Shown here piece by piece: positions 1,676 through 37,152 of a DNA stretch of 64,000 bases (the first letter of the stretch is position 1; each line of letters begins with the position of its first letter). The stretch comes from Monoplex corrugatus. Lineage: Eukaryota > Mollusca > Gastropoda > Littorinimorpha > Ranellidae. Where the stretch lies: contig JAPXFY010000026.1 in the NCBI GenBank assembly GCA_030674185.1, positions 52,025,246 through 52,089,245 of the forward strand, in the 5' to 3' direction. The notes below the pieces were generated by a model that did no database searches, was not told the DNA's origin, and saw only the letters and a program-made list of their open reading frames with translations. Made by a program: the position numbers and the translations under genes.

Positions 1676-1804
1676 TTACACCGGGATGTTTTCATTGCAG
1701 CAGCAAATTAAGAGATATATCGCAGTCCTGAACTTGCTAACCATACACTACGAGCAAGCACTCAGCATGATCATTCTTTATAGATAATAATTCTAAACGG
1801 TTGT

Positions 1805-3112
1805 CTTGAGTTTTGAGTATGGAAACCCTTTTTTTCTCAACCGTCTTGAGTATGGGAACACTTTTTTCTCAAACATCTTGAGTCTTGAGTATGGAACACT
1901 TTTTTCTCAAACATCTTGAGTATGGGAACACTTTTTTCTCAAACATCTTGAGTATGGGAACACTTTTTTCTCAAACATCTTGAGTATGGGAACACTTTTT
2001 TGTCAAACATTTTGAGTCCTGAGTATGGAAACACTTTCTTCTCAAACATCTTGAGTATGGGAACACTTTTTTCTCAAACGTCTTGAGTATGGAAACACTT
2101 TTTTCTCAAACATCTTGAGTCATGAGTATGGGAACACTTTTTTTCTCAATCATCTTGAGTATGGAAACACTTTTTTCTCAAGTATCTTGAGTATGGGAAC
2201 ACTTTTTTCTCAAACATCTTGAGTCTTGAGTATGGGAACACTTTTTTTTCTCAAATATCTTGAGTTGAGTATGGGAACACTTTTTCCTCAAATATCTTGA
2301 GTGTGGAAACATTTTTTTCTCAAACATCTTGAGTCTTGAGTGTGGAAACATTTTTTCTCAAACATTTTGAGTCTTGAATATGGAAACACTTTTTTCTCAA
2401 ACTCTTGAATCTTGAGTATGGTAACACTTTTTTGACAAATATTTTGAGTCTTGATATGGAAACACTTTTTTTTTCTCAAACATCTTGAGTATGGGAACAC
2501 TTTTTTTGTCAAATATTTTGAGTCTTGAGTATGGGAACACTTTTTTTCTCGAACATCTTGAGTATGGGAATACTTTTTTTCCTCAAACACCTTGAGTCTT
2601 GAGTATGGGAACACTTTATTTCTCAAACATCTTGAGTATGGGAACACTTTTTATCTCAAATATCTTGATCTTGAGTATGGAAACACCTTTTTTTTCTCAA
2701 TTATCTCGAGTGTGGAAACATTGTTTTCCCGAAACATCTTGAGTCTTGAGTATGGGAACACTTTTTTCTCAAACATCTTGAGTCTTGAATATGGAAACAC
2801 GTTTTTCTCAAACTCTTGAATCTTGAGTATGGAAACACTTTTTCTCAAACATCTTGAGTGTGGAAACACTTTTTTCTCAAACATCTTGAGTCTTGAGTAC
2901 GGAAACACTTTTTTCGTAAACATCTTGTCTTGAGTATGGAACACTTTTTTCTCAAACATCTTGAGTCTTGAGTATGGAAACACTTTTTTTCTCAAACATC
3001 ATGAGTATGGGAACACTTTTTTCCTCAAACGTCTTGAGTCTTGAATATGGAAACCCCTTTTTCTCAAAATCTTGAGTCTTGAATATGGAAACACTTTTTT
3101 CTCTCTCAAACT
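1805..3112. repeat. 32/39-bp minisatellite array
   Basis: About 35 units built on the core GAGTATGGGAACACTTTTTT followed by CTCAAACATCTT. The basic period is 32 bp. Many units carry an extra 7-bp CTTGAGT duplication, giving 39 bp. Units differ by point changes (GGAA/GGGA, length of the T run). The open frames through it, on both strands, simply translate the repeat. Confidence 0.95.
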
Positions 3113-3224
3113 CACAATATTCCATTTCCACACGAGCATATGTATGTATGGTGTACATCTTTTAAAAAAAAAACAATTGTACATTGGTTTGGTTAAATCT
3201 GCAATGAACACAGAATATTTGGCA

Positions 3225-3660
3225 AGTAATGTTACGTTGTCAAATATTTCATCTGCTTTAAGCAACCAGTTGATGTGCATGTATTTTTCCTGTGGACAAT
3301 TTCTTCAGTTCTTCTGTACATACCGTGAGGGTCCGTTTTGTGTCGGTCTTCTATTTCTTTGCATTTTGTTTTTAGCCAAGCTTCCTTAGCTTTATTACAC
3401 CTATTCCTGATTTCTTTGTTTATATTCCTGTATATCTCCTCGTTTCTCTTTGCCTTCCTCCGTTCATCCATCAAGCCTAGAATTTCTTTTGTCATCCAGA
3501 TCTTCTTTGCTTTTCTGTCTACTTTAGGGATGTCTTCACAACCTTCATTTATCGAATTTGTCCATTGTTCCTCACTGTCACCGACGTCTTCCGGAGCACT
3601 GAATTTGTTTTGAACATGTAAGTTAATTTTTTTACGAATCACTTCATCTGTCCTAAAGAT
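3225..3660 (-). pseudogene. RTE-like LINE ORF2 fragment (endonuclease-RT linker)
   Basis: On the minus strand the 136-aa frame at 3,232-3,642 contains IWMTKEILGLMDERRKAKR and a Lys/Arg/Glu-rich segment ending in a CTSTGC-type motif. This is the pattern of the linker between the APE endonuclease and reverse transcriptase of RTE-type LINEs. The same layout is seen in the longer LINE at 40,255-42,850. Both flanking domains are missing, so this is a dead fragment. Confidence 0.6.
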
Positions 3661-4741: not shown

Positions 4742-4902
4742 TTAACCCTTTGACTCCCGCACCCGCAACATCTGCAAAAACTTAATCCTTTGACAGGAAG
4801 CTGGTGAATAGGGTGAGGGAATCAAGGGTTACGTTTTTGCTTTGCTAACATGATTGACAATACAGAATGTTAGTAAACAGGGCGTGGAAGTCAAAGGGTT
4901 AA
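4742..4902. mobile_element. TTAA-flanked fold-back MITE, copy 1
   Basis: Starts TTAACCCTTTGACTCCCGCA and ends GTGGAAGTCAAAGGGTTAA. The left flank (GGTATATAACGGCTGCTTTAA) and right flank (ACACCAGGGTATAAC) are the two halves of one 28-bp minisatellite unit, so the element is inserted at that unit's TTAA. Terminal CCC next to a duplicated TTAA is the piggyBac-type signature. Confidence 0.85.
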
Positions 4903-6851
4903 ACACCAGGGTATAACATGGCTACTTTAAACACGAGAGTATTAAACGACTGATTCGAACACCAGAGTATAAAATGGCTATTTTGAGAACCAGGGTATAA
5001 ATGGTTGCTTCAAACACCAGGACAAAAAATGGCTGTTTTAAACACCAGAGTATAAATGGCTGCTTTAAACCCCAGAGTATAAAATGGCTGTTTTGAGAAC
5101 CAGGGTATAAAATGGTTGCTTTAAACACCAGGGTATAAATGGCTGCCTTGAACACCAGTTTATAAAATGGCTGTTTTAAACACCAGGATATAAAATGGCT
5201 GTTTTAAACATTAGGGTATAAAATGGCTGTTTTAAACACAAGGGTATAAAATGACTACTTTAAACACCAGGGTATAAGATGGCTGAATTAAACACCAGGG
5301 TATAAAATGGCTGTTTTAAACACCAGGGTATAAAATGGCTGTTTTAAACACCAGGGTATAAAATGGCTGTTTTAAACACCAGGGTATAAGATGGCTGTTT
5401 TAAACACCAGGGTATAACATGGCTGCTTTAAACACCTGGGTATAATATGGCTGCTTTAAACACCAGGGTATAAAATGGCTGCTTTAAACACCAGGGTACA
5501 AAATGGCTGCTTTAAACACCAGGGTATAATATGGTTGCTTTAAACACCAGGGTATGATATGGCTGCTTTAAACACCAGGGTATAAAATGGCTGCTTTAAA
5601 CACCAGGGTACAAAATGGCTGCTTTAAACACCAGGGTATAATATGGCTGCTTTAAACACCAGTGTACAAAATGGCCGCTTTAAACATCAAGGTATAAATG
5701 GCTGCTTTAAACACCAGAGTAGAAAATGGCTGTTTTAAACACGAGGGTATAAAATGGCTGTTCTAAACACCAGGGTGTAAAATGGCTGCTTTAAACACCA
5801 GGGTACAAAATGGCTGCTTTAAACACCAGGGTATAAAATGGCTGCTTTAAATACCAGGGTATAAAATGGCTGCTTTAAACACCAAGGTATAAAATGGCTG
5901 CTTTAAACACCAGGTATAAAATGGCTGCTTTAAACACCAGGGTATAAAATGGTTGCTTTAAACACCAAGGTACAAAATGGCTGCTTTAAACACCAGGGTA
6001 TAAAATGGCTGCTTTAAACACCAGGGTATAAAATGGCTGCTTTAAACACTAGGGTACAAAATGGCTGCTTTAAACACCAGGGTATAAAATGGCTGCTTTA
6101 AACACCAGGGTGTAAAATGGCTGCTTTAAACACCAGAGTATAATATGGCTGCTTTAAACACCAGGGTATAAAATGGCTGCTTTAAACACCAGGGTATAAA
6201 ATGGCTGTTTCAAACACCAGGGTATAAAATGGCTGCTTTAAACACCAGGGTATAAAATGGCTGTTTTAAACACCAGGGTAGAAAATGACTACTTGAAAGA
6301 CCAGGGTAGAAAATGGCTGTTTTAAACACCAGGGTATGAAATGGCTGCTTAAACACCAGGGTATGAAATGGCTGTTTTAAACACCAGGGTATAAAATGAC
6401 TACTTTAAACACCAGGGTATAAAATGGCTGTTTTAAACACAAGAGTATAAAATGGCTGCTTTAAACACCAGGGTAGAAAATGGCTGTTTTAAACACCAGG
6501 GTATAATATGGTTGCTTTGAACACCAGGGTATAATATGGCTGCTTTAAACACCAGGGTGTAATATGGCTGCTTTAAACACCAGGGTGTAAAATGGCTGCT
6601 TGAAGCACCAGGGTACAAAATGGCTGCTTTAAACACCAGGGTATAAGATGGCTGTTTTAAAGACCAGTGTATAAAATGGCTGTTTCAATCACCAGGGTAT
6701 AAAATGGCTGCTTTAAAACCAGGGTATAAAATGGCTGCTTTAAACACCAGGGTATAAAATGGCTTCTTCAAACACCAGGGTATAAAATGGCTGCTTTACA
6801 CACCAAGGTATAAAATGGCTGCTTTGAACACCAAACTATAAAGTGGCTGCT

Positions 6852-6991
6852 TTAATTACCCTTTGACTCCTGCACCCTGTCCACCAGCATCTTGTATTGT
6901 CAACCATGCAGGTAGCTGGTGGACAGGGTGATGGAGTCAAAGAGTTAAGTTTTTGCGGTTGGTTGACAGGGTGCAGCAGTCAAAGGGCTAA
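6852..6991. mobile_element. TTAA-flanked fold-back MITE, copy 2, inside the minisatellite
   Basis: Begins with a TTACCCTTTGACTCCTGCACC stretch and ends GTCAAAGGGCTAA, with a Ctg-Gtg inverted stem in the middle. The flanks GTGGCTGCTTTAA and ACACCAGAGAATAAA again reconstitute one 28-bp unit, giving a second independent filled-versus-empty site. One TTAA has decayed to CTAA. Confidence 0.85.
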
Positions 6992-9900
6992 ACACCAGAG
7001 AATAAAATGGCTGTTTTAAACACCAGGGTATAATATGGCTGCTTTAAACACCACGGTATAAAATGGCTGTTTTAAACACCAGGGTATAAAATGGCTGTTT
7101 TAAACACAAGGGTATAAAATGGCTGCTTTAAACACCAGGGTATAAAATGGCTGTTTTAAACACCAGGGTATAAAATGGCTGTTTTAAACATCAGGGTATG
7201 AAATGGCTGATTTAAACACCAGGGTATAAAATGGCTGTTTTAAACACCAGGGTATAATATGGCTGCTTTAAAAACCAGGGTATAATATGGCTGCTTTAAA
7301 CACCAGGGTATAGAATGGCTGTTTTAAAGACCAGGGTATAAAATGGCTGCAGTAAAACCAGAGTATAAAATGGCTGCTTTAAATACCAGGGTATAAAATG
7401 GATGTTTTAAACACAAGGGTATAAAATGACTACTTTGAACACCAAGGTATAAAATGGCTGTTTTTTTAACACCATGTACACAATGGCTGCTTTAAACACC
7501 AGGGTATAAATGGCTGCTTTAAACTCCAGGGTATAATATGGCTGCTTTAAACACCAGGGTATAAAATGGCTGCTTTAAACACCAGGGTATAAAATGGCTG
7601 TTTTAAACACCAGGGTATAAAATAGCTGCTTTAAAAACCAGGGTATAAAATGGCTGCTTTAGACACCAGGGTATAAAATGGCTGCTTTAAACACCAGGGT
7701 ATAAATGGCTGCTTTGAACACCGGGGTATAATATGGCTGCTTTAAATACCAGGGTACAAAATGGCTGTTTTAAACACCAGGGTATAAAATGGCTGCTTTA
7801 AACACCAGGGTATAAAATGGCTGCTTTAAACGCCATCTTACAAAATGACTGTTTTAAAGACCAGGGTATAAAATGGCTGTTTCAAACACCAGGGTATAAA
7901 ATGGCTGCTTTAAAACACCAGGGTATAAAATGACTACTTTAAACACCAGAGTATAAAATGGCTGTTTAACACCAGGGTATAAAATAGCTGTTTAAACACC
8001 GGGTATAAAATGGCTGTTTTAAACACCAGGGATAATATGGCTGCTTTAAACTCCAGGGTATAATATGGTTGCTTTAAACACCAGGGTATAATGTGGCTGC
8101 TTTAGGCTCCAGGGTATAAAATGGCTGTTTTAAACACCAGGGTGTAAAATGGCTGCTTTAAACACCAGGGTATAATATGGCTGCTTTAAACACCATGGTA
8201 CAAAATGGCTGCTTTAAACTCCAGGGTATAAAATCGCTGTTTTTAACACCAGTGTATAAAATCGCTGTTTCAAACACCAGGGTATAAAATGGCTGCTTTA
8301 AACACCAGGGTATAAAATGGCTGCTTTAAACACCAGGGTATAAAATGGCTGCTTTAAACACCAGGGTATAATATGGCTGTTTTAAACACCAGGGTATAAA
8401 ATGGCTGCTTTAAACACCAGGGTATAAAATGGCTGCTTTAAACACCAGGGTATAATATGGCTGTTTTAAACACCAGGGTATAAAATGGCTGCTTTAAACA
8501 CCAGGGTATAAAATGGCTGTTTTAAACACCAGGGTATAAAATGGCTGTTTTAAACACTAGGGTATAAAATGACTGCTTTAAACACCTGGGTAGAATATGG
8601 CTGCTTTAAACACCAGGGTATAAAATGGCTGCTTTAAACACCAGGGTATAAAATGGCTGCTTTAAACACCAGGGTATAATATGGCTGCTTTAAACACCAG
8701 GGTATAATATGGCTGCTTTAAACACCAGGGTATAATATGGCTGCTTTAAACACCAGGGTATAATATGGCTGCTTTAAACACCAGGGTATAAAATGGCTGC
8801 TTTAAACACCATGGTACAAAATGGCTGCTTTAAACTCCAGGGTATAAAATCGCTGTTTTTAACACCAGTGTATAAAATCGCTGTTTCAAACACCAGGGTA
8901 TAAAATGGCTGTTTTAAACACCAGGGTATAAAATGGCTAAACACCAGGGTATAAAATGGTTGCTTTAAATACTAGGGTATAAAATGGCTGCTTTAGACAC
9001 CAGGGTATAAAATGGCTGTTTTAAACACCAGGGTATAATATGGCTGCTTTAAACACCTTGGTAGAATATGGCTGCTTTAAACACCAGGGTATAAAATGGC
9101 TGCTTTAAACACCAGGGTATAAAATGACTGCTTTAAACACCAGGGTTATAAAATAGCTGCTTTAAACACCAGGGTATAAAATGGCTGCTTTAAACACCAG
9201 GGTATAATATGGCTGCTTTAAACACTAGGGTTTAAATGGCTGCTTTAAACACCAGGGTATAAAATGGCTGCTTTAAACACTAGGGTAAAAAATGGCTGCT
9301 TTAAACACCGGGTATAAAATGACTACTTTAAACACCAGGGTATAAAATGGCTGCTTTGAACACCAGGGTATAATATGGCTGCTTTAAACACTAGGGTATA
9401 AAATGGCTTCTTTAAACACCAGGGTAAAAAATGGCTTCTTTAAACACCAGGGTAAAAAATAGCTGCTTTAAAACACCAGGGTATAAAATGACTGCTTTAA
9501 ACACCAGGGTATAAAATGGCTTCTTTAAACACCAGGGTATAAAATGGCTTCTTTAAACACCAGGGTATAAAATGGCTGCTTTAAACACCAGGGTATAAAA
9601 TGACTGCTTTAAACACCAGGGTATAAAATGGCTGCTTTAAACACCAGGGTATAAAATGGCTTCTTTAAACACCAGGGTATAAAAATGGCTGCTTTAAACA
9701 CCAGGGTATAAAATGGCTGCTTTGAACACCAGGGTATAATATGGCTGCTTTAAACACTAGGGTATAAAATGGCTTCTTTAAACACCAGGGTAAAAAATGG
9801 CTTCTTTAAACACCAGGGTAAAAAATAGCTGCTTTAAACACCAGGGTATAAAATAGCTGTTTTAAACACCAGGGTATAAAATGGCTGCTTTAAACACCAG

Positions 9901-11160
9901 GGTATAAAATGGCTTTTTAAACACCAGGGTATAAAATGGCTGCTTTAAACACCAGGGTATAAAATGACTGCTTTAAACACTAGGGTATAAAATGACTGCT
10001 TTAAACACCAGGGTAAAAAATGGCTTCTTTAAACACCAGGGTAAAAAATAGCTGCTTTAAACACCAGGGTATAAAATGGCTGCTTTAAACACTAGGGGTA
10101 AAAAATGGCTGCTTTAAACACCGGGTATAAAATGACTACTTTAAACACCAGGGTATAAAATGGCTGCTTTGAACACCAGGGTATAATATGGCTGCTTTAA
10201 ACACTAGGGTATAAAATGGCTTCTTTAAACACCAGGGTAAAAAATGGCTTCTTTAAACACCAGGGTAAAAAATAGCTGCTTTAAACACCAGGGTATAAAA
10301 TGACTGCTTTAAACACCAGGGTATAAAATGGCTTCTTTAAACACCAGGGTATAAAATGGCTTCTTTAAACACCAGGGTATAAAATGGCTGCTTTAAACAC
10401 CAGGGTATAAAATGGCTGCTGTGAACACCAGGGTATAATATGGCTGCTTTAAACACCAGGGTATAAAATGGCTTCTTTAAACACCAGGGTATAAAATGGC
10501 TGCTTTAAACACCAGGGTATAATATGGCTGCTTTAAACACTAGGGTATAAAATGGCTTCTTTAAACACCAGGGTAAAAAATGGCTTCTTTAAACACCAGG
10601 GTAAAAAATAGCTGCTTTAAACACCAGGGTATAAAATAGCTGTTTTAAACACCAGGGTATAAAATGGCTGCTTTAAACACCAGGGTATAAAATGGCTTCT
10701 TTAAACACCAGGGTATAAAATGGCTTCTTTAAACACCAGGGTATAAAATGGCTGCTTTAAACACCAGGGTATAAAATAGCTGCTTTAAACACCAGGGTAT
10801 AAAATGGCTGCTTTAAACACCAGGGTATAAAATGACTGCTTTAAACACCAGGTATAAAATGACTGCTTTAAACACCAGGGTATAAAATAGCTGCTTTAAA
10901 CACCAGGGTATAAAATAGCTGCTTTAAACACCAGGGTATAAAATAGCTGCTTTAAACACCAGGGTATAAAATGACTGCTTTAAACACCAGGTATAAAATG
11001 ACTGCTTTAAACACCAGGGTATAAAATAGCTGCTTTAAACACCAGGGTATAAAATAGCTGCTTTAAACACCAGGTATAAAATGACTGCTTTAAATACCAG
11101 GGTATAAAATGACTGCTTTAAACACCAGGGTATAAAATGACTGCTTTGGACACCAAGATA

Positions 11161-11257
11161 TAATAATAATAATTATTACAATATTTATATAGCGCAAAAT
11201 CTTGATAAAATCAAATCTAAGCGCTGAAACAGACACACACGCACGCACGCACACACA

Positions 11258-19951: not shown

Positions 19952-20980
19952 TCAATATCGCGTGTGTCCGCCCCGAGCCTGGATGCATGCTTCACAGCGC
20001 CGATGCATCGACCCCACAAGGGTACGGAGTGTGTCCTGAGGGATGGCCGCCCACTCGATCTGCAGGATGTCGACCAGCCTGGCCAGGGTGCCCGGTGGGG
20101 GGTGGTTGTCCCTGATGCGCCTCCCGAGCACATCCCAGAGGTGTTCAATTGGGTTCAGGTCAGGTGAGCACGCTGGCCAGGCCATACGGACGACTTCATG
20201 CTGCTCCAGGAAGTCGGTCACAAGGCGTGCTCGATGCGCAGGTGCATTGTCGTCCTGGAAGATGGCGCCTTGACCAAGGTCCACAAGCGCAGGCAGTGCC
20301 ACGGCCGCCAGAACCTCGTCCCGGTACCGGACCCCGTTCAGGATGCCGTCAATGGGGAGCAGGGGGGTCCGGGTACCACGGCTCATGCCACCCCACACCA
20401 TCACCGACCCGCCGCCGTACCGGTTATGCTCTTGGACAGTGGCGTCAGCGAACCTCTCCCCTTGACGTCGCCACACCCGAGCCCGGCCATCGTTAAAGGT
20501 CAGGGTGAACCTGGACTCATCCGAAAACAAGACCCGGGCCCACTGTTGCCTTGTCCAGGTCACGTGCTCCCTGGCCCAGGTCATGCGGCGCACTCTGTTG
20601 ACCGGTGACAGCACGAGTCGGACGGCCGGTCTCCGTGACCTCAAGTTTGCCTCATGTAGCCGTCTTCTCACCGTGCTGCAGCTGATGTTAGCACCTGTTG
20701 CGTCCCTCAGCTGACCCCTCAAGGTCACCGCAGTGGATGCCCTTTCCCTCAGGACGGAGAGGGCAAGGTAGCGGTCTTGCTGTCTTGTCATTACTCTGGG
20801 TCGACCCGTGTGACGCCTTTCCTGGACTGCTCCAGTCTCATTGAAGCGCTCCAGCAGTCTCTGGATTGTGGAATGCGACACTTCAAGTCGTCTAGCAACT
20901 TCCCGCTGCGCTAGGCCTTCATCAAGCAGAGCGAGGGCTCTCCCCCGCTGCTCATCCGTCATCCGTCGTCTTGCAAGCAT
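19952..20980 (-). CDS. Tc1-like DD34E transposase, uninterrupted
   Basis: The 342-aa frame is uninterrupted. The N-terminal part (residues about 5-60: RGRALALLDEGLAQREVARR, STIQRLLERFNETGAV) and RHTGRPRVMT form the paired helix-turn-helix DNA-binding region with a GRPR AT-hook-like link. The catalytic triad is visible: Asp in VLFSDESRFTL, Asp in IFQDDNAPAH and Glu in SPDLNPIEHLWD. The last two are 34 residues apart, the DD34E spacing of Tc1 elements; cut-and-paste at TA dinucleotides is the family mechanism. The coding region is far more GC-rich than its neighbours, consistent with a young copy or foreign base composition. I could not identify its terminal inverted repeats, so whether the element can move is unknown. 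Confidence 0.95.
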   Translation of the reverse strand: MLARRRMTDEQRGRALALLDEGLAQREVARRLEVSHSTIQRLLERFNETGAVQERRHTGRPRVMTRQQDRYLALSVLRERASTAVTLRGQLRDATGANISCSTVRRRLHEANLRSRRPAVRLVLSPVNRVRRMTWAREHVTWTRQQWARVLFSDESRFTLTFNDGRARVWRRQGERFADATVQEHNRYGGGSVMVWGGMSRGTRTPLLPIDGILNGVRYRDEVLAAVALPALVDLGQGAIFQDDNAPAHRARLVTDFLEQHEVVRMAWPACSPDLNPIEHLWDVLGRRIRDNHPPPGTLARLVDILQIEWAAIPQDTLRTLVGSMHRRCEACIQARGGHTRY

Positions 20981-28700: not shown

Positions 28701-31700
28701 TCCTCTTTTCTGTCACTCTCTTTGTTTCTGCCTTATTCCTTTGCTTTCTGTCATTTCTTCTTTCTTTGCTTTCTGTCATTTCTTCCTATCATTTTCTGCC
28801 TTGCTGGTCCATTCACCTGTATGTGTTTGATTAAGTCTTACATATTTTCTCTTAGGATTGATAATTGGGTACATGTATTAAGTGCATTTTTGGCTCTAGG
28901 GAAATACGATACGGAAGCAATTTTAGGAATTTAGGCCCGTTTTTATAGATGTTTCGTGTCCTTAGGCTTAGTTGTGTTTAAATTTGTATTCAGGAATATT
29001 TTTTAATCCGCTGTGTGATAAATTGGACAGAGTGGTCAACGCCAGGGGCATCTCCTTAGATTATTTGTGCGAATGCATTGTTATGATGTGTGTATTCAAT
29101 TTTCTTTTCCTTTTCTTTTCTGTTAGAAGTGTTGTGTATGTTTTGAAACGATTATAGCCCTGATATGGCTCTACACAGTCGGCTGGGCTTTAAACAAAAA
29201 TAACAATAACGCTATTTATACAGCTGTATTCAGATAATTTGTATTTTTAATCCCTCTTAGTGATAAAGTGGTCAGAATGGCCAGTGCTAGGGGCATATCG
29301 TTTGAGATGGTAAAAGCTCTGTGCAGTTGGCTGGCCTTTAAACACTAACAATAATGAAAATAAAAATGATGATAATGGATAATATTAATAATATACTGTT
29401 TATGTTGTGTCAGCCAGTGGTATTCATAATAAAAATGATAATAATAATAATGTTTCTGTTGCCCTAGCACCAGCCTATTAGTTATCATAATAAAGACCAA
29501 TGTAATGGATTCAATAAAGTAATAGTAGTGTTTATGTCGCACCAGCCAATGGTTATCATAATATAAAATATTGAATAGGATAATAATATGTTGACAGCCA
29601 ATGTAAATATATAAATAATAATAATGATGACGTAATAATGTTTATGTTGTACTAGCCAATGGTAATCATAATAAAAATGATGATAATATAATAATAATAA
29701 AATAATATGTTTATGTTGCATCAGCCAATGGTAATCAATAAAATGTAATAATATGTTTTGTTACCCAGCGTGGTAATCATATTAAAAATGGATAGAATAA
29801 TGATAATAACAGTAATAAGATTTATGTGCACCAGATAATGATAATCGTAATAAAAATTATAATAAAGATAATAACAATAATACTGTTTGTGTTGCAGCAG
29901 CCAATGGTAATCGCCCTGTGCGTATGGCCCGTGACGCTGTTTTGGCAAGGGAACTGCTGCAGTCTGAAATGGACCTGATGATGCAGAGAGACGAAGAAAT
30001 GGCTCGACAACTACAGAACGAAATCGATAATGATGATGACGAGCCACCCCCATTGTCTCCACCACCACCTCTGTCCATGTTTTCTTCTCCTGGGTTCAAT
30101 TCTGTGAGTTTTGACTTAAGTTTAACCCTCTGACTCCCGCAGTCTATCCACCAACTGCAAAAACTTAACCCTATGATTCCCTCACCCTATCCACCAGCTT
30201 CTTGCAGGAAGCTGGTGGATAGGGTGAGGGAATCAAAGGGTTAAAGTTTTACTCTGCTAGTATTGTTGATGATGCACAATAAAGTAGAATTAACAGTTGT
30301 TAAAACAATTCTAATAAGTGTGGATGTGTAGTAATGCTGGTCTGTAATCTCTACTGTTCTCTGTATTGAAATAGGATCATACTGGTAATTGTAATCATAA
30401 TTATTGTACACATTCACACTGCGTGCGCGCAAACACAAACACACGCACACTCTCACACATATACTAGCAATGCCGTGCGAACCGAAACGCGACGTCAAAT
30501 TTGTGGTACAAAAAACTGGGGCCGGCCGCAAAATTGGGGGGGTCTTCAGTTCAATCAAGTATTACTGCCTCTTTAATCGGTGTTTCATTCTTATTTTTTG
30601 TCTTATGTGAATTAGAAATGAATAAAGATTTGAATGATTGCCTTTTTATATACTTAGAGCGAAAATAGAATTAGTTATTTGATGAGAAAGTCGAAAATCC
30701 GCGTTTCAAGCGCACTCGCGGCGACGGTATGCGTTTAGAATCGAAGTTTGTTCGAGGTGCTTCACTATTTCGGTCGGTACGGCTATATTTGTGAACCAAT
30801 CACATTGTAATTTTGCAGCCAATGAGAATTAATGTAACAGAATGATATATCCCGACGAGAGCTATGTGTGCTAGTTTCGAACCGAGATCGACGCTTCCAA
30901 AGTTTTGCTTTTTTTCATCGGAAAAGTTTGCAAGTAAGTCGCCATTTTTGGAACTTCTCGTCGGCGGGATTCAATTTTACATGCTTTTTTCTATATGGGC
31001 CGATGTCAAAAGGTGCCCAAGTCACTTCCGGGTTGCAGCAAGTTATGTAACTAGTTACAAAAATTGCATTTTGGACAGATTTGTGTTTCTTTTGACTGTT
31101 GAATAAATAAAGATGAACATTGAGAAAAATCAGAGGCACACGTTCTCTGTGATTTAAATAAATAAACAGCTTTGAAAAAAAAATGCTGCTTTTTAGCGAT
31201 GTATTTTGTAGTGGTACTACAGTGCACCCAATTGACTCAACAGACACCAACCCCCAAACCCTCTCCAAACAGTAAATTTGACATACATTGTTTATTAAAG
31301 GATAGATGCACTATTCTGTGTTGTTTGTTGTACTTTAAAGCGTTTTATTGGTGAAAAATCAAAGTTCGAAAATTGCAAGTCTAATGTGACTCTTGATGTC
31401 ACAGTAAGATCGGCTTTCCGACGACAGTTGTGTTTACACAAACCGTCGCCAAGGGAACAAACTAACGTTTACGCCAGTGCAGCGGTTGCAGCTCTCATAG
31501 GACGGGAAGTAACTGCTCGGTGTGAAGAAATTTTTGTGTTCTGGCTTGCTGAAGTTTTTGTGTCACATGTCACATTAGATCCACTCGACCCTTGTCGGAA
31601 AATCTTCGGTCAGGCGCCGTTCATTCTTCGCTTTTTAACAACCGGAAGCTGTGTGCGCATGGGCTATGTGTCTGTTTTCTACAAACCAAGATGGAGAGAC

Positions 31701-34700
31701 GGCGCGAAGGTGAGTTTCTTTCCCTGTCACGGGTACTGTGTCTTGTCATAAAAGACACGAAAGTCACACTAGACAACAACTTGTTCATTCTCCAAACTTT
31801 TCACTCATTGTTTATTACTTTTCTTGCTTGTATACGTTTAAATAAGTATCAGAACCTCAAATTTGGTTGCGACATCGTCGCTGCTACCCACAGAGGCGAA
31901 AATACAAAACATCGTGTACTTTGTGACAACCAGGGTTGTTGTCACACGTCACAATAGACTTAGCGTCTGATAGTCACAAGTCGCAGGTCACAGAAGACAT
32001 ATGATGTCACAGGTCACCAAAGACATCATTGAATCCGATTAACAGCATCAAAACGTACTAGTGTATTATCAAAATATTACTTTAGTTAATATTTTGTTGT
32101 TGTTGATAAACTTAAATTTTCTTAATTATACTGGACACAGAACTGGATGGTAATCTGTGTGGCTCTCTGTTTTTTGTGACTTTGACAACACATGAGAAAG
32201 TGGTCATGTTAGACTTTGCATTTGGAGGAAATTGGGGAAAATCTAATACTTTGGTCTGTGGTTCAGCTGTGCTTGTATTCCAGTACGAAGAATACTAAGG
32301 GACATGCAATCATATTGGAAAAAAACACTGTGTAAAAAAAAAATTTTTTTTTTTAGTTTTGTGACGGAAGGAGAAGTGTTGTCACTGTCACAATAGACAA
32401 GAAGGCCATTTAGGACAGCTCTATTAGTTCATGAAACAATTTGAAATGACAAATCATGCAATGTTTATTTACTGGCCTGTTGCTGAAAAGAAATTATTTT
32501 GAGCATCCATCAAGTTACAGGGTAAGATTTGTCATTTTAATGTCTTTAGTGACTGGTTTGGCATGTGACGACATTGAGATAGAATGAGAAATCAACACTG
32601 AACAATTGTTTCCACAGGACTTCGCTCACTAAAACCAAAGGCTCCAAAACCCACAAGGACCAATGCCCAGCGGTGTGCTGAATATAAGCAGAGACTCAAA
32701 AAGGATCCAGATAAATACGACATGTATCTGAAGAAGCAGAAAGCCTTGGCCCAGTCTTGGCGCGCTCGGCGGACTGAAGAGAAAAAAATGGAAGACAGAG
32801 AAGCAGCAAGAATCAGGAAACAGTTAAGCAGGTATGATGTTCAGACTGTGGTTCTCACTCTCGATTTTCAGTTACACTTTTGCTGCTGACTCCACCAGGA
32901 TGGGTGTCATGCCTTGTTGAGCATCAAAGCATAAATTCTAATATCACATTATTGTGAAGTCATTCTTGGAGTATCAGGTCTGTTTGCAGACACTGATGAT
33001 CAGGGTTCTCCAGACTTCTGTCGTCTGCTTTGTGAATAGGGTCTGTGTTGCTGATGTTTTTTCCGACAAAATTTTGTAGGCTGCTGATGTATGTTGTTCG
33101 CTGTCTACCACGGGCTTTCTTGCCTTGTAATTTTCCCATTAACATCAGTTTTTGTAAGCTTTTTTTTCTGATGATATGCCCAAGGAATTTCAACTGTCTC
33201 TCTCTAATTGTTGCAGTTAGAGATCTTTTTTTTGCCAGCTCTAATACTTCCTCATTTGTTTTCTTTTCTGTCCGTATGTGGAATATCCTTCTTAAGAACC
33301 ACATTTTGGTTACCTCCAATTTTCTTAATTGCTGATTGTTTAAGTCCAGCATTCACATCCATAAAGCAAGACAGACTATACATATGTCTTGAGGACTCTT
33401 GAGTTTAGTGTCGGGTGAGATATTCCTATTTCTGAGAATAGGGCTCATTTTTGTTGAAGCTGTCTTTTGATATGGCAATTCGTCTATTTCTCATTCGCAT
33501 CTACCATTTGATGTTATTGTGAAACCAAGCCATTTGAATTGATTCACTTGCTTGATTCTCGTGTTGTTGCATGTGGTGATACAAACTCAAATGGTGGGGG
33601 ATGTGGTTTCTTAGAATGTCATACATTTACTGATTTAGTTTTGTTGACATTCAAAGAGAGTCTATTTGCTTCACTATGGGCTACTACTGTGTTTAGGGTG
33701 TTCTGTAGCTTTTGTGCCCTTATCCGGGTGTGAAGTCATTAAGTAAAAGATTCAAAGAACCTTTTTGAACTCAGGGGGTTTATTTCAGCCTTGGAAAAAC
33801 AGGGTGACATCAGCTAATTAGTGCAGGAAGACATAAATTGTGTGTACATGTGTGTGTGTTTTTTACTTCACAATGTATTCATTTTATGATTTTATTGTTG
33901 TTGTTCTAGAGCACGACAAAAGGAGCAGGCGAAAAAGAACAGTGGACATCAATCTTGCTTTCAAGGTGTCATCAAAGGACAGAAGACGGGCGTACAGATG
34001 AAGGCTGCAGAGGCAAGCAGGCCAAAGACAAGAGCAGACACAGAAAAGAAGGAAGAGGAGAGAAGGAAAGCAAGAAAACGAAAGAGGAAGAGCAGGGCAA
34101 ACAGGTCAATCAAGAAAAAAGCTTCTGACAACAAGAAACGCATGGACAGATATTATAAAAAGAAAGAGAATGAAAAACTGTCAAGGGTAAAAGCCTTTAC
34201 AGACGTGAGCAAAGGTGACAGAAGAAACACAGGCTATCTAATGACCTTGAACAAGAAGTCTTTGAAGAACCTTTCCAAGAAAGAGACAAGCAGTCGCTTA
34301 CCAAGTTAGCTGCAATCAAAGAAATTCTTAAGAAATCGCAGGTGATGTCATGGGCAAAAACGCAATACTACAAACGCCAGAAAGTCAGTGATCGGACCAT
34401 TGAAGACTTTTGTGAGAAAGAAGCAATAGATTTGCCAGGCAAGAAGACAGTGGGACACTACAGCATGAAACAAAAGAAAGTGCTGACAAGGCGGATTGAA
34501 GATCTGTATGCAGACTTTCGAAACAAAAATCCATCATTCAAGATTTCTTTGACCACTTTTGCCAGACGGCGGCCATCACACATATTGCTTTCAAGTAGCA
34601 GAGCGTTTCTCCAGTGTCTGTGCGAGAAATGTGAAAACCCAATGCTGAACGTATATCTGAAGGTGAAAATAAGACAGGTGGGTCACTTAGTTGAACAGAC

Positions 34701-37152
34701 TCTTTGTGGATACAAAGAATTTCACAGAAACTGTGTTGACAGAAAATGTGATGCCTGTGGAGTGGAGAAGGTGATTACTAGATGGAAACTGGAGTTAGAA
34801 GGAAAGCTGCAGGATCAGGTCAAATGGACACGGTGGGAGCAGTCAGGAAAGTCAGGGAAAACCCTTGTGGAAAAAGATGGCAGCCTTGAAGACTTGATCA
34901 AAGAACTCCAGGCGGAGATGAAGGATCTTGCAAAACATTTGAAAACAGCAAAATGGCAGAGACAGCAGTATCAAAATCTGTTAAGCAGCTTGCCATACAG
35001 AACAGCAGTTATCACCAGTGACTTTGCGGAAAATTATACTTGTAAATTTCAAAATGAAGTGCAGAGCTCACATTGGAGCTATAACCAGATCAGCATACAC
35101 CCCTGTGTACTTCAGTACAAATGTCAGGATGAAGGGTGCGATGAAGCCGTCACTGAGTACATTGTGTTTATTTCTGATGATCTGCGCCAAGATGCAGCCT
35201 TTGAAAAGACTGTGATGGAGCAACTGTTGGGGCACTTGAAAGAAATTAGCATCACAAAAGCCATTGAAGACTGGTGCAAGTCCACTTCATGGTTCAAGTT
35301 GGACAGTTTTTCACTTGGCCAGTCAAACCAGACGAATCATGGGAGCCAGCAGAACTCTTCACCGGTCCGCCTCTGAAGCTGTCACTGAACATGGATCACT
35401 CCACACAGAGGAAGCAGTTTTTCACTGTTGACTAGATCTAATCTTCCTCATTAGTTACCCAGAACTTTTGGTGAGGGGGGGAGATCATCGCACCAAGTCA
35501 AGTTTCCTTCCTTTTGTGCTCACTGCTCAGTCCCTGTTTTGCTTTCTTTATTCATGAATCAGGTGATGAGGATGATAACTATGATGCCATGGAGTTCCAT
35601 CTAAGACTAGAGAAAGACTGCGTGACAGGGCTGTACTCTACGCTTACTACCATAATATATCCTGGCCCGAGAGATACAGACACCTGCGGTGTTGGTCAGA
35701 AGATTTAAGCAACACCCTCTTTCGCATCCGTAAAGTGGATGAGACTCGACTGTTTGGTCCCAGTCTTCCCAATGAGACCATAGCACGCCCACTCTGGGCA
35801 GGAGCCGGTTGGAGCCGAAAAATCGCACTGCGAATACGATGGGGATTTGAACCCGCAATCTTCCAGTCGGCAGTCCGTGGTGCTAACCACTACAACAAGG
35901 TTACTGGTTTTTCAGTTACCAAGAACTTAATAGCACCACTTCAGAGCAGTTGTTGTTTGTATTAAATTAGCTTTTAAAGGTTGGGTAATGTTAGTCACTA
36001 TCAAATCATTACTATAACTATGTCACAAGAGACACAATGTCGTCACAGGGTTTGTGTCACAAGAGACATATATTATGCAAAGTTTGATCAGATACAAAAA
36101 CTGACAACTTGTTGTTGCTTCTCATAGCAATAATTTCATGCTTCTATTTGGAGAAATAAAATTATTTCACAATGACTGGTGTGCCTTGTGCCCAAGACAG
36201 AATGTCTGTGAAAGTGTGAATGTCTTTTGTGACTGTGACAACTGAAATGGTATTATTTAATTGTAATAAACCTTTTCAAGGGGCTGTCTGATCTTATTCA
36301 AAGTCCATTACAGTTTTGCTCTTGTATACATGTTCAGTCAGAGTGATTTCCACCAAAACATTGAAAAAAAATTGTGTGTTTATGTCGTCACATGTCACAA
36401 GAGACATGGATCAGACCTTGATTTCAAAACTTAATTTCTCAAAACTGGCTGAATTTTTTTCCTTCTGCCTTTTAAAAGCAGTTAACTGAATGTTAAAGAA
36501 AAATCAAAATGCATTTTATTTAGCTTAGAATATACTTTGGTTTTGAAGGTGATCAAACAGCACCTTTTGACATTGGCCCATATGCATGTGTAATTTGAAA
36601 TCAATTTGATGTAAAATATGGCCGTACGGCAACATTTTACACGAGGATCTATACCAGATCAGTAGCAAAACAACGTCGCAATGTGCCGACGCCATAGGCC
36701 TACTGCGCGGAACAGAACAGTGTGCAAGTTTCAGCTCAGCAAGTTTCGCGTTGTCAGACAAAGACCAGCAACCAACAGATCAAGTTCTGTTTTATCTGTA
36801 ACACTGTATTTTTCAAGAAAAGGACAACTGCGTTTGAACTCGATTCGGAGTTGTCATCCGAAGCTATGTTCGTCAACCATTTCCTCCCTGAGGTCATGCT
36901 AATTTGCATGTCGCTGTGTAGACCTGCTCACCCCACGACGGGCGAGCTTACTACTAAAAATACTATGTGCTCGACGGGCTTCGCCGAGCTGTGGAAAATG
37001 GGTTTGCCCAAACAGAGGGGTGCGCATACCTGCCTCCCCAACTCTCTCTCTCTCTCTCTCTAATAAATAAATGAATGAATAAATAGGTCTAAATAATTTT
37101 TTTTCAAATCAACAAACAATTCTGTGCAAGTCATTGTACTTTCCTTGATATG

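Follow-up and report, generated by a model that had tools for sequence, protein, structure and literature searches.

A Sola2-like, internally deleted and probably non-autonomous DNA transposon family in the gastropod Monoplex corrugatus

The closest described systems to the element analyzed here are the Sola2 transposons. Those reported by Bao and Jurka in 2013 from Dictyostelium fasciculatum (DFa-1/2/3) and Polysphondylium pallidum (PPa-1/4/5) have terminal inverted repeats (TIRs) of 12-13 or 21 bp and AT-rich 4-bp target-site duplications (TSDs) of the form AWWT, namely ATAT, AAAT and ATTT (PMC3627910). In a review, Sola is characterized by a DDD catalytic triad, 4-bp TSDs and TIRs of 11-1124 bp (PMC10741241). 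Ginger1 combines a Gypsy-type DDE integrase core with TIRs tabulated at 44-270 bp in the paper describing it (PMC2836005), and a range of 40-270 bp is given for Ginger in the review (PMC10741241). We analyzed a 64,000-nucleotide stretch of Monoplex corrugatus DNA (GCA_030674185.1, contig JAPXFY010000026.1, positions 52,025,246 to 52,089,245, forward strand; C26 of the 3.0-Gb source assembly), hereafter called the window. It contains a DNA transposon whose ends, genomic copies, TSDs and empty sites were observed, and we read this element, with a probability of roughly 85%, as belonging to a Sola2-like family and as a non-autonomous copy of 5.58 kb with an internal deletion.

The element proper occupies positions 30997-36579 of the window (5,583 bp). 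The inverted ends claimed in a sequence-only reading of the window proved to be real. As listed, arms at 30993-31016 and 36560-36583 are 24 nt long and 96% complementary; no other pair among the 25 inverted-repeat pairs listed out of 38 reaches both 20 nt and 95% complementarity. The four outermost bases of each arm, ATAT, are the target duplication and lie outside the TIR, which is 20 bp long with one mismatch and has the form GGGCC...GGCCC (Table 1). A check for TA duplications had been suggested; instead, an exact 4-bp TSD was found in all 15 copies readable at both ends (ATAT in 10, AAAT in 3, ATTT in 1 and ACTT in 1), the ends being located with substitutions only. Fourteen of these TSDs fit AWWT, the exception being ACTT. 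A TA duplication is ruled out by these 4-bp TSDs, since the ATTT, AAAT and ACTT copies show no TA, and Tc1/mariner is excluded by the same copies. piggyBac, Kolobok and Sola3 have TTAA targets; these superfamilies were likewise ruled out, as none of the 15 TSDs is TTAA.

Copies of the element were then searched for in the source genome. The first 136 bases of the element had 18 genomic matches, of which 17 are nearly full-length with 97-100% identity, and the last 151 bases matched 16 places at 98-100%, confirming that other copies share both ends. One end is missing in three of the 18 copies: two run into N (C24 and C34) and the third has N at its left end (C20:41.78M). The joined 200-base flanks of the window copy matched at least 40 uninterrupted paralogous sites across all 400 bases at 98-99% (40 of 912 candidates scored), plus one short match. 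Eight of these empty sites were read, each with a single ATAT and 4-9 mismatches per 400, indicating that insertion was precise and into highly repeated host sequence. The host sequence on either side of the element (30797-30996 and 36584-36783) is itself highly repeated, with at least 40 uninterrupted copies at 98-99%. Among 12 of the 18 copies, divergence over the last 2.7 kb was 0-1.05% substitutions, with a mean of 0.70%, and the family has recently spread in this genome.

The dispersed subterminal motifs described earlier were also borne out by counting. Motif TGTCACAnnAGACA with at most 2 mismatches had 19 matches in the element, some overlapping (13 on the plus and 6 on the minus strand), whereas 200 first-order Markov sequences of equal length gave 1.2 on average and never more than 6; the remaining 58.2 kb of the window held 13 matches. 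All 19 matches start at 31233-32541 or 36021-36393, on the two flanks, and none lies between exon 2 and the exon-3 stop. A typical site reads TGTC-N6-GACA.

We next examined the gene carried by the window copy, which was read from the letters as three exons with matching phases, the third from 33910 onward, and is a prediction from DNA rather than from a transcript. The relative P0030 matched exon 2 by tblastn at 45% identity (E 1.1e-10), and the related locus L040, whose protein is ~48% identical, has a counterpart of the small exon 1 and its donor. The motifs FAENYTCKFQNE, IHPCV and FISDD, noticed previously, occur within the frame 34219-35376. Near 34280 the window copy carries a one-base frameshift that is absent from the 12 other copies readable there. 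In intron 2, a minus-strand open reading frame (ORF) at 32960-33352, which by its motif resembles the 3' end of a long interspersed element (LINE) reverse-transcriptase gene, had no match in a Pfam scan; because copies C16 and C5768 contain this stretch as well, it is probably older than the spread of the family. In the 3' part of the element, 35840-35890 resembles, in our estimation, the reverse complement of a tRNA B-box (GGGATTTGAACCC) and is possibly an old short interspersed element (SINE).

The third exon ends at a deletion. A 6.0-kb copy on C28 (L058; blocks at 92.7-98% identity) holds ~2.3 kb between window positions 35266 and 35267, and this segment codes, with frameshifts, for the catalytic Asp residues two and three, as well as for a cluster of Cys and an OTU-like end. 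What is missing from the window copy is therefore the second and third Asp and the C-terminal OTU-like domain. The junction was read in 15 of the 18 copies (C19, C24 and C34 were not read there) and is common to 13 of them, the window included; the exceptions are C28, which keeps the segment, and C5768, in which a further 0.6-kb deletion covers the place. A further 0.45-kb deletion is found in C16, and the two ends of C19 lie as far apart as those of C16. The C28 copy lacks element positions 1795-3607 and is frameshifted too. Because the junction recurs in 13 of 15 copies, and C28, which retains the segment, is deleted elsewhere, the family consists of internal-deletion derivatives. The possibility that a downstream exon provides what is missing was considered and rejected, since none of 54 query proteins matched the window beyond 35400 at E 0.01. 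Thus the earlier description of a three-exon, transposase-type gene of a widespread animal family holds for the exons and the family; judged from its sequence, the gene is not a working transposase, as only the first catalytic Asp is kept and two of the three catalytic residues are gone.

A complete relative of close DNA identity was not found in the assembly, where C24 and C34 are not readable at the junction; a search with 1,301 bases of the C28 segment returned C28 and, beyond it, a single 60-base match at 83%. More distant elements with long open frames were present among the 90 of 1143 candidate loci scored, with 781 aa (L016) and 1084 aa (L017 and L023), at 55% and 48% to P0001. Read by eye, the letters of element L023 (C17:23.81 Mb) show ATAT adjoining each end, and its TIRs are related to the window element's own, the right one ending in GGCACCTTTTGGGAGTTGCCC. 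The sister element L040 carries a related motif, TGTCACGAGAAACA, on both flanks, and its outermost left bases do not fit the end pattern of L023 and the window. L016/L039 was examined as a full-length relative, and its ends were not found. These distant elements are candidate helpers that may move the window family.

The proteins of the wider family were then compared. The relatives are ~800-1,100 aa long, with the second Asp in SDGCxxQYKS and the third in HGKSxCD, followed by a long and unusual C-terminal part, resembling a ubiquitin protease, that is OTU-like in mollusc relatives and Ulp1 in others. Their catalytic triad is D-D-D, so the DDE label first attached to the gene does not suit the family. 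An RNase-H fold was predicted for a relative. In the proteins scanned with Pfam, NCBIfam and PHROGs, the core matched no transposase family, except for two proteins that are possible fusions. One is P0149, from a sea spider assembly, with a Pfam integrase core (rva_4) at residues 142-321 (E 1.1e-17); the other is P0084, from a fish, in which residues 97-146 match a PRDM2 PR domain and residues 537-620 give a DUF7869 match below the cut-off. PDB sequence searches gave nothing informative. Among 50 of 502 Foldseek matches nearly all were OTU and none was an integrase; integrases appeared in a second look (VIA). Pattern searches for the wider family gave 26 matches in viral contigs and 11 in prokaryote genomes, none of which was confirmed.

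These features bear on classification, for which the element is filed as Sola2-like by its features, not by protein comparison with a reference Sola2. The TSDs are 4 bp and AT-rich in both, although one ACTT occurs here, and the 20-bp TIR compares with 12-13 and 21 bp in the dictyostelid elements (PMC3627910). DDD is present in the relatives and visible in the C28 segment, the window copy having the first D only. The dictyostelid transposase of 888 aa lies within the size range of the relatives, and members with most of the transposase region deleted are known in dictyostelids as here (PMC3627910). In contrast to those elements, the present one has an animal host, subterminal arrays, three exons and, in mollusc relatives, an OTU-like C-terminal domain, and no Fanzor gene was seen. 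No dictyostelid name occurred among the 120 of 289 relatives listed, most of which are nameless. Since TSD, TIR length and DDD match Sola2, the type is probably not unnamed, contrary to what had been supposed.

Membership in Ginger1 would account for the tails, as its transposases also carry OTU or Ulp1 C-terminal domains (PMC2836005); here these are found in the relatives and not in the window copy. The integrase core of P0149 also points that way and fits a Sola2-like filing poorly, although the protein may be a fusion. Yet the six Pfam families matched at E 0.01 in 66 relatives, a set that does not include P0149, comprise no integrase core, the third catalytic residue is D where Ginger1 has a Gypsy-type DDE core (PMC2836005), and the 20-bp TIR falls short of the 40-270 bp of Ginger (PMC10741241), so that this assignment is very improbable. 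Even less credible is an ordinary host gene or host repeat that merely resembles a transposon. Relatives are indeed annotated as uncharacterized host genes or as Vertnin in several species, but the dispersed near-identical copies, exact TSDs and empty sites contradict such a reading.

It is also conceivable, though unlikely, that the truncated protein is retained as a regulatory subunit or repressor, binding the ends but not cutting them. Deletion derivatives of the P element are known repressors. Stop-free exon-3 frames of 484-501 aa persist in five copies (C9, C15:7.03M, C33 and two on C20), with the Cys-rich region kept in all three of those examined. However, such frames are expected without selection because the copies have diverged by at most 1.05%. 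Moreover, in five further copies the exon-3 frame spans only 320 aa, a single stop interrupts C872 and the window copy carries its frameshift.

For the non-autonomous Sola2-like element, we propose that a full-length D-D-D transposase made by another element would bind the TIRs and the TGTC-N6-GACA sites, excise the element and insert it with a 4-bp stagger at AT-rich targets, which are mostly AWWT, in a putative cut-and-paste reaction. The element's own gene, left with just the N-terminal, Cys-rich and first-half core regions, cannot supply catalysis, and the element is probably moved in trans by such a helper.

Table 1. Coordinates of the features of the element within the window
Feature	Position	Strand	Evidence
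Left target-site duplication ATAT	30993..30996	.	Identical to 36580-36583; single ATAT at empty sites
Left terminal inverted repeat GGGCCGATGTCAAAAGGTGC	30997..31016	+	Inverted-repeat listing, genome copies, TSD reading
Left subterminal region, dispersed TGTCACAnnAGACA motifs in both orientations	31233..32554	.	Motif count
Exon 1 (ATG GAG AGA CGG CGC GAA G), donor GTGAGT at 31710	31691..31709	+	Letters; counterpart of this exon and its donor in relative L040
Exon 2, basic N-terminal region	32618..32831	+	Splice signals read; P0030 tblastn match at 32620-32823
Intron-2 ORF	32960..33352	-	Stretch also in copies C16, C5768 (L059, L060 alignments)
Exon 3: Cys-rich region and first half of RNase-H-like core, first catalytic Asp (DFAENY)	33910..35266	+	
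Deletion junction, ~2.3 kb absent	35266..35267	.	Segment kept in L058
Tail after deletion, unlike relatives, stop at 35374-35376	35267..35376	+	
Right subterminal region with TGTCACAAGAGACA motifs	36021..36406	.	Inverted-repeat listing, motif count
Right terminal inverted repeat GCACCTTTTGACATTGGCCC	36560..36579	-	Inverted-repeat listing, genome copies, TSD reading
Right target-site duplication ATAT	36580..36583	.	TSD reading, empty sites

Elsewhere in the window, a tandem array of a 28-bp unit (~225 copies, 88% matches, 6.3 kb) was found at 4899-11163, and another at 1804-3103 shows nested periods of 32, 39, 103 and 147 bp on a TTGAGTATGGGAACACTTTTTTCTC core. A tRNA-Gly (ccc) was predicted at 20088-20173 by ARAGORN with the bacterial code and may be only tRNA-like; Rfam at gathering score gave nothing in the window.

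Three mollusc relatives (P0020, P0024 and P0030) bear the UniProt name Vertnin. Vertnin is associated with vertebra number in pigs. The paper naming pig VRTN reports a helix-turn-helix motif similar to one in IS3/IS911 transposases (PMC3024977), and human VRTN is listed as an inactive OTU-like homologue (PMC10318531). An OTU-like domain is shared by VRTN and the relatives; VRTN is a vertebrate host gene and the comparison is one of name and domain annotation, not of sequence. As a lead, vertnin may descend from the transposase clade of the relatives. We raise tentatively, at rather less than even odds, the broader idea that animal OTU-tailed DDD transposases form a distinct, unrecognised Sola2-like clade and that vertebrate vertnin is a domesticated descendant of one. 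Our literature search found nothing related that links Sola2 with OTU, which is no proof that none has been published, most subscription journals and Repbase Reports lying outside that search.

It has been suggested that removal of ubiquitin or SUMO aids transposition (PMC2836005). The occurrence of OTU and Ulp1 tails on a DDD group apart from Ginger1 is a parallel in line with this deubiquitination or deSUMOylation suggestion (PMC2836005). The lead on vertnin would provide a testable origin for that gene. The present analysis documents a recently amplified non-autonomous family in this genome, and it links a large set of animal proteins annotated as "uncharacterized" to a DNA transposon whose ends, TSDs and empty sites are proven.
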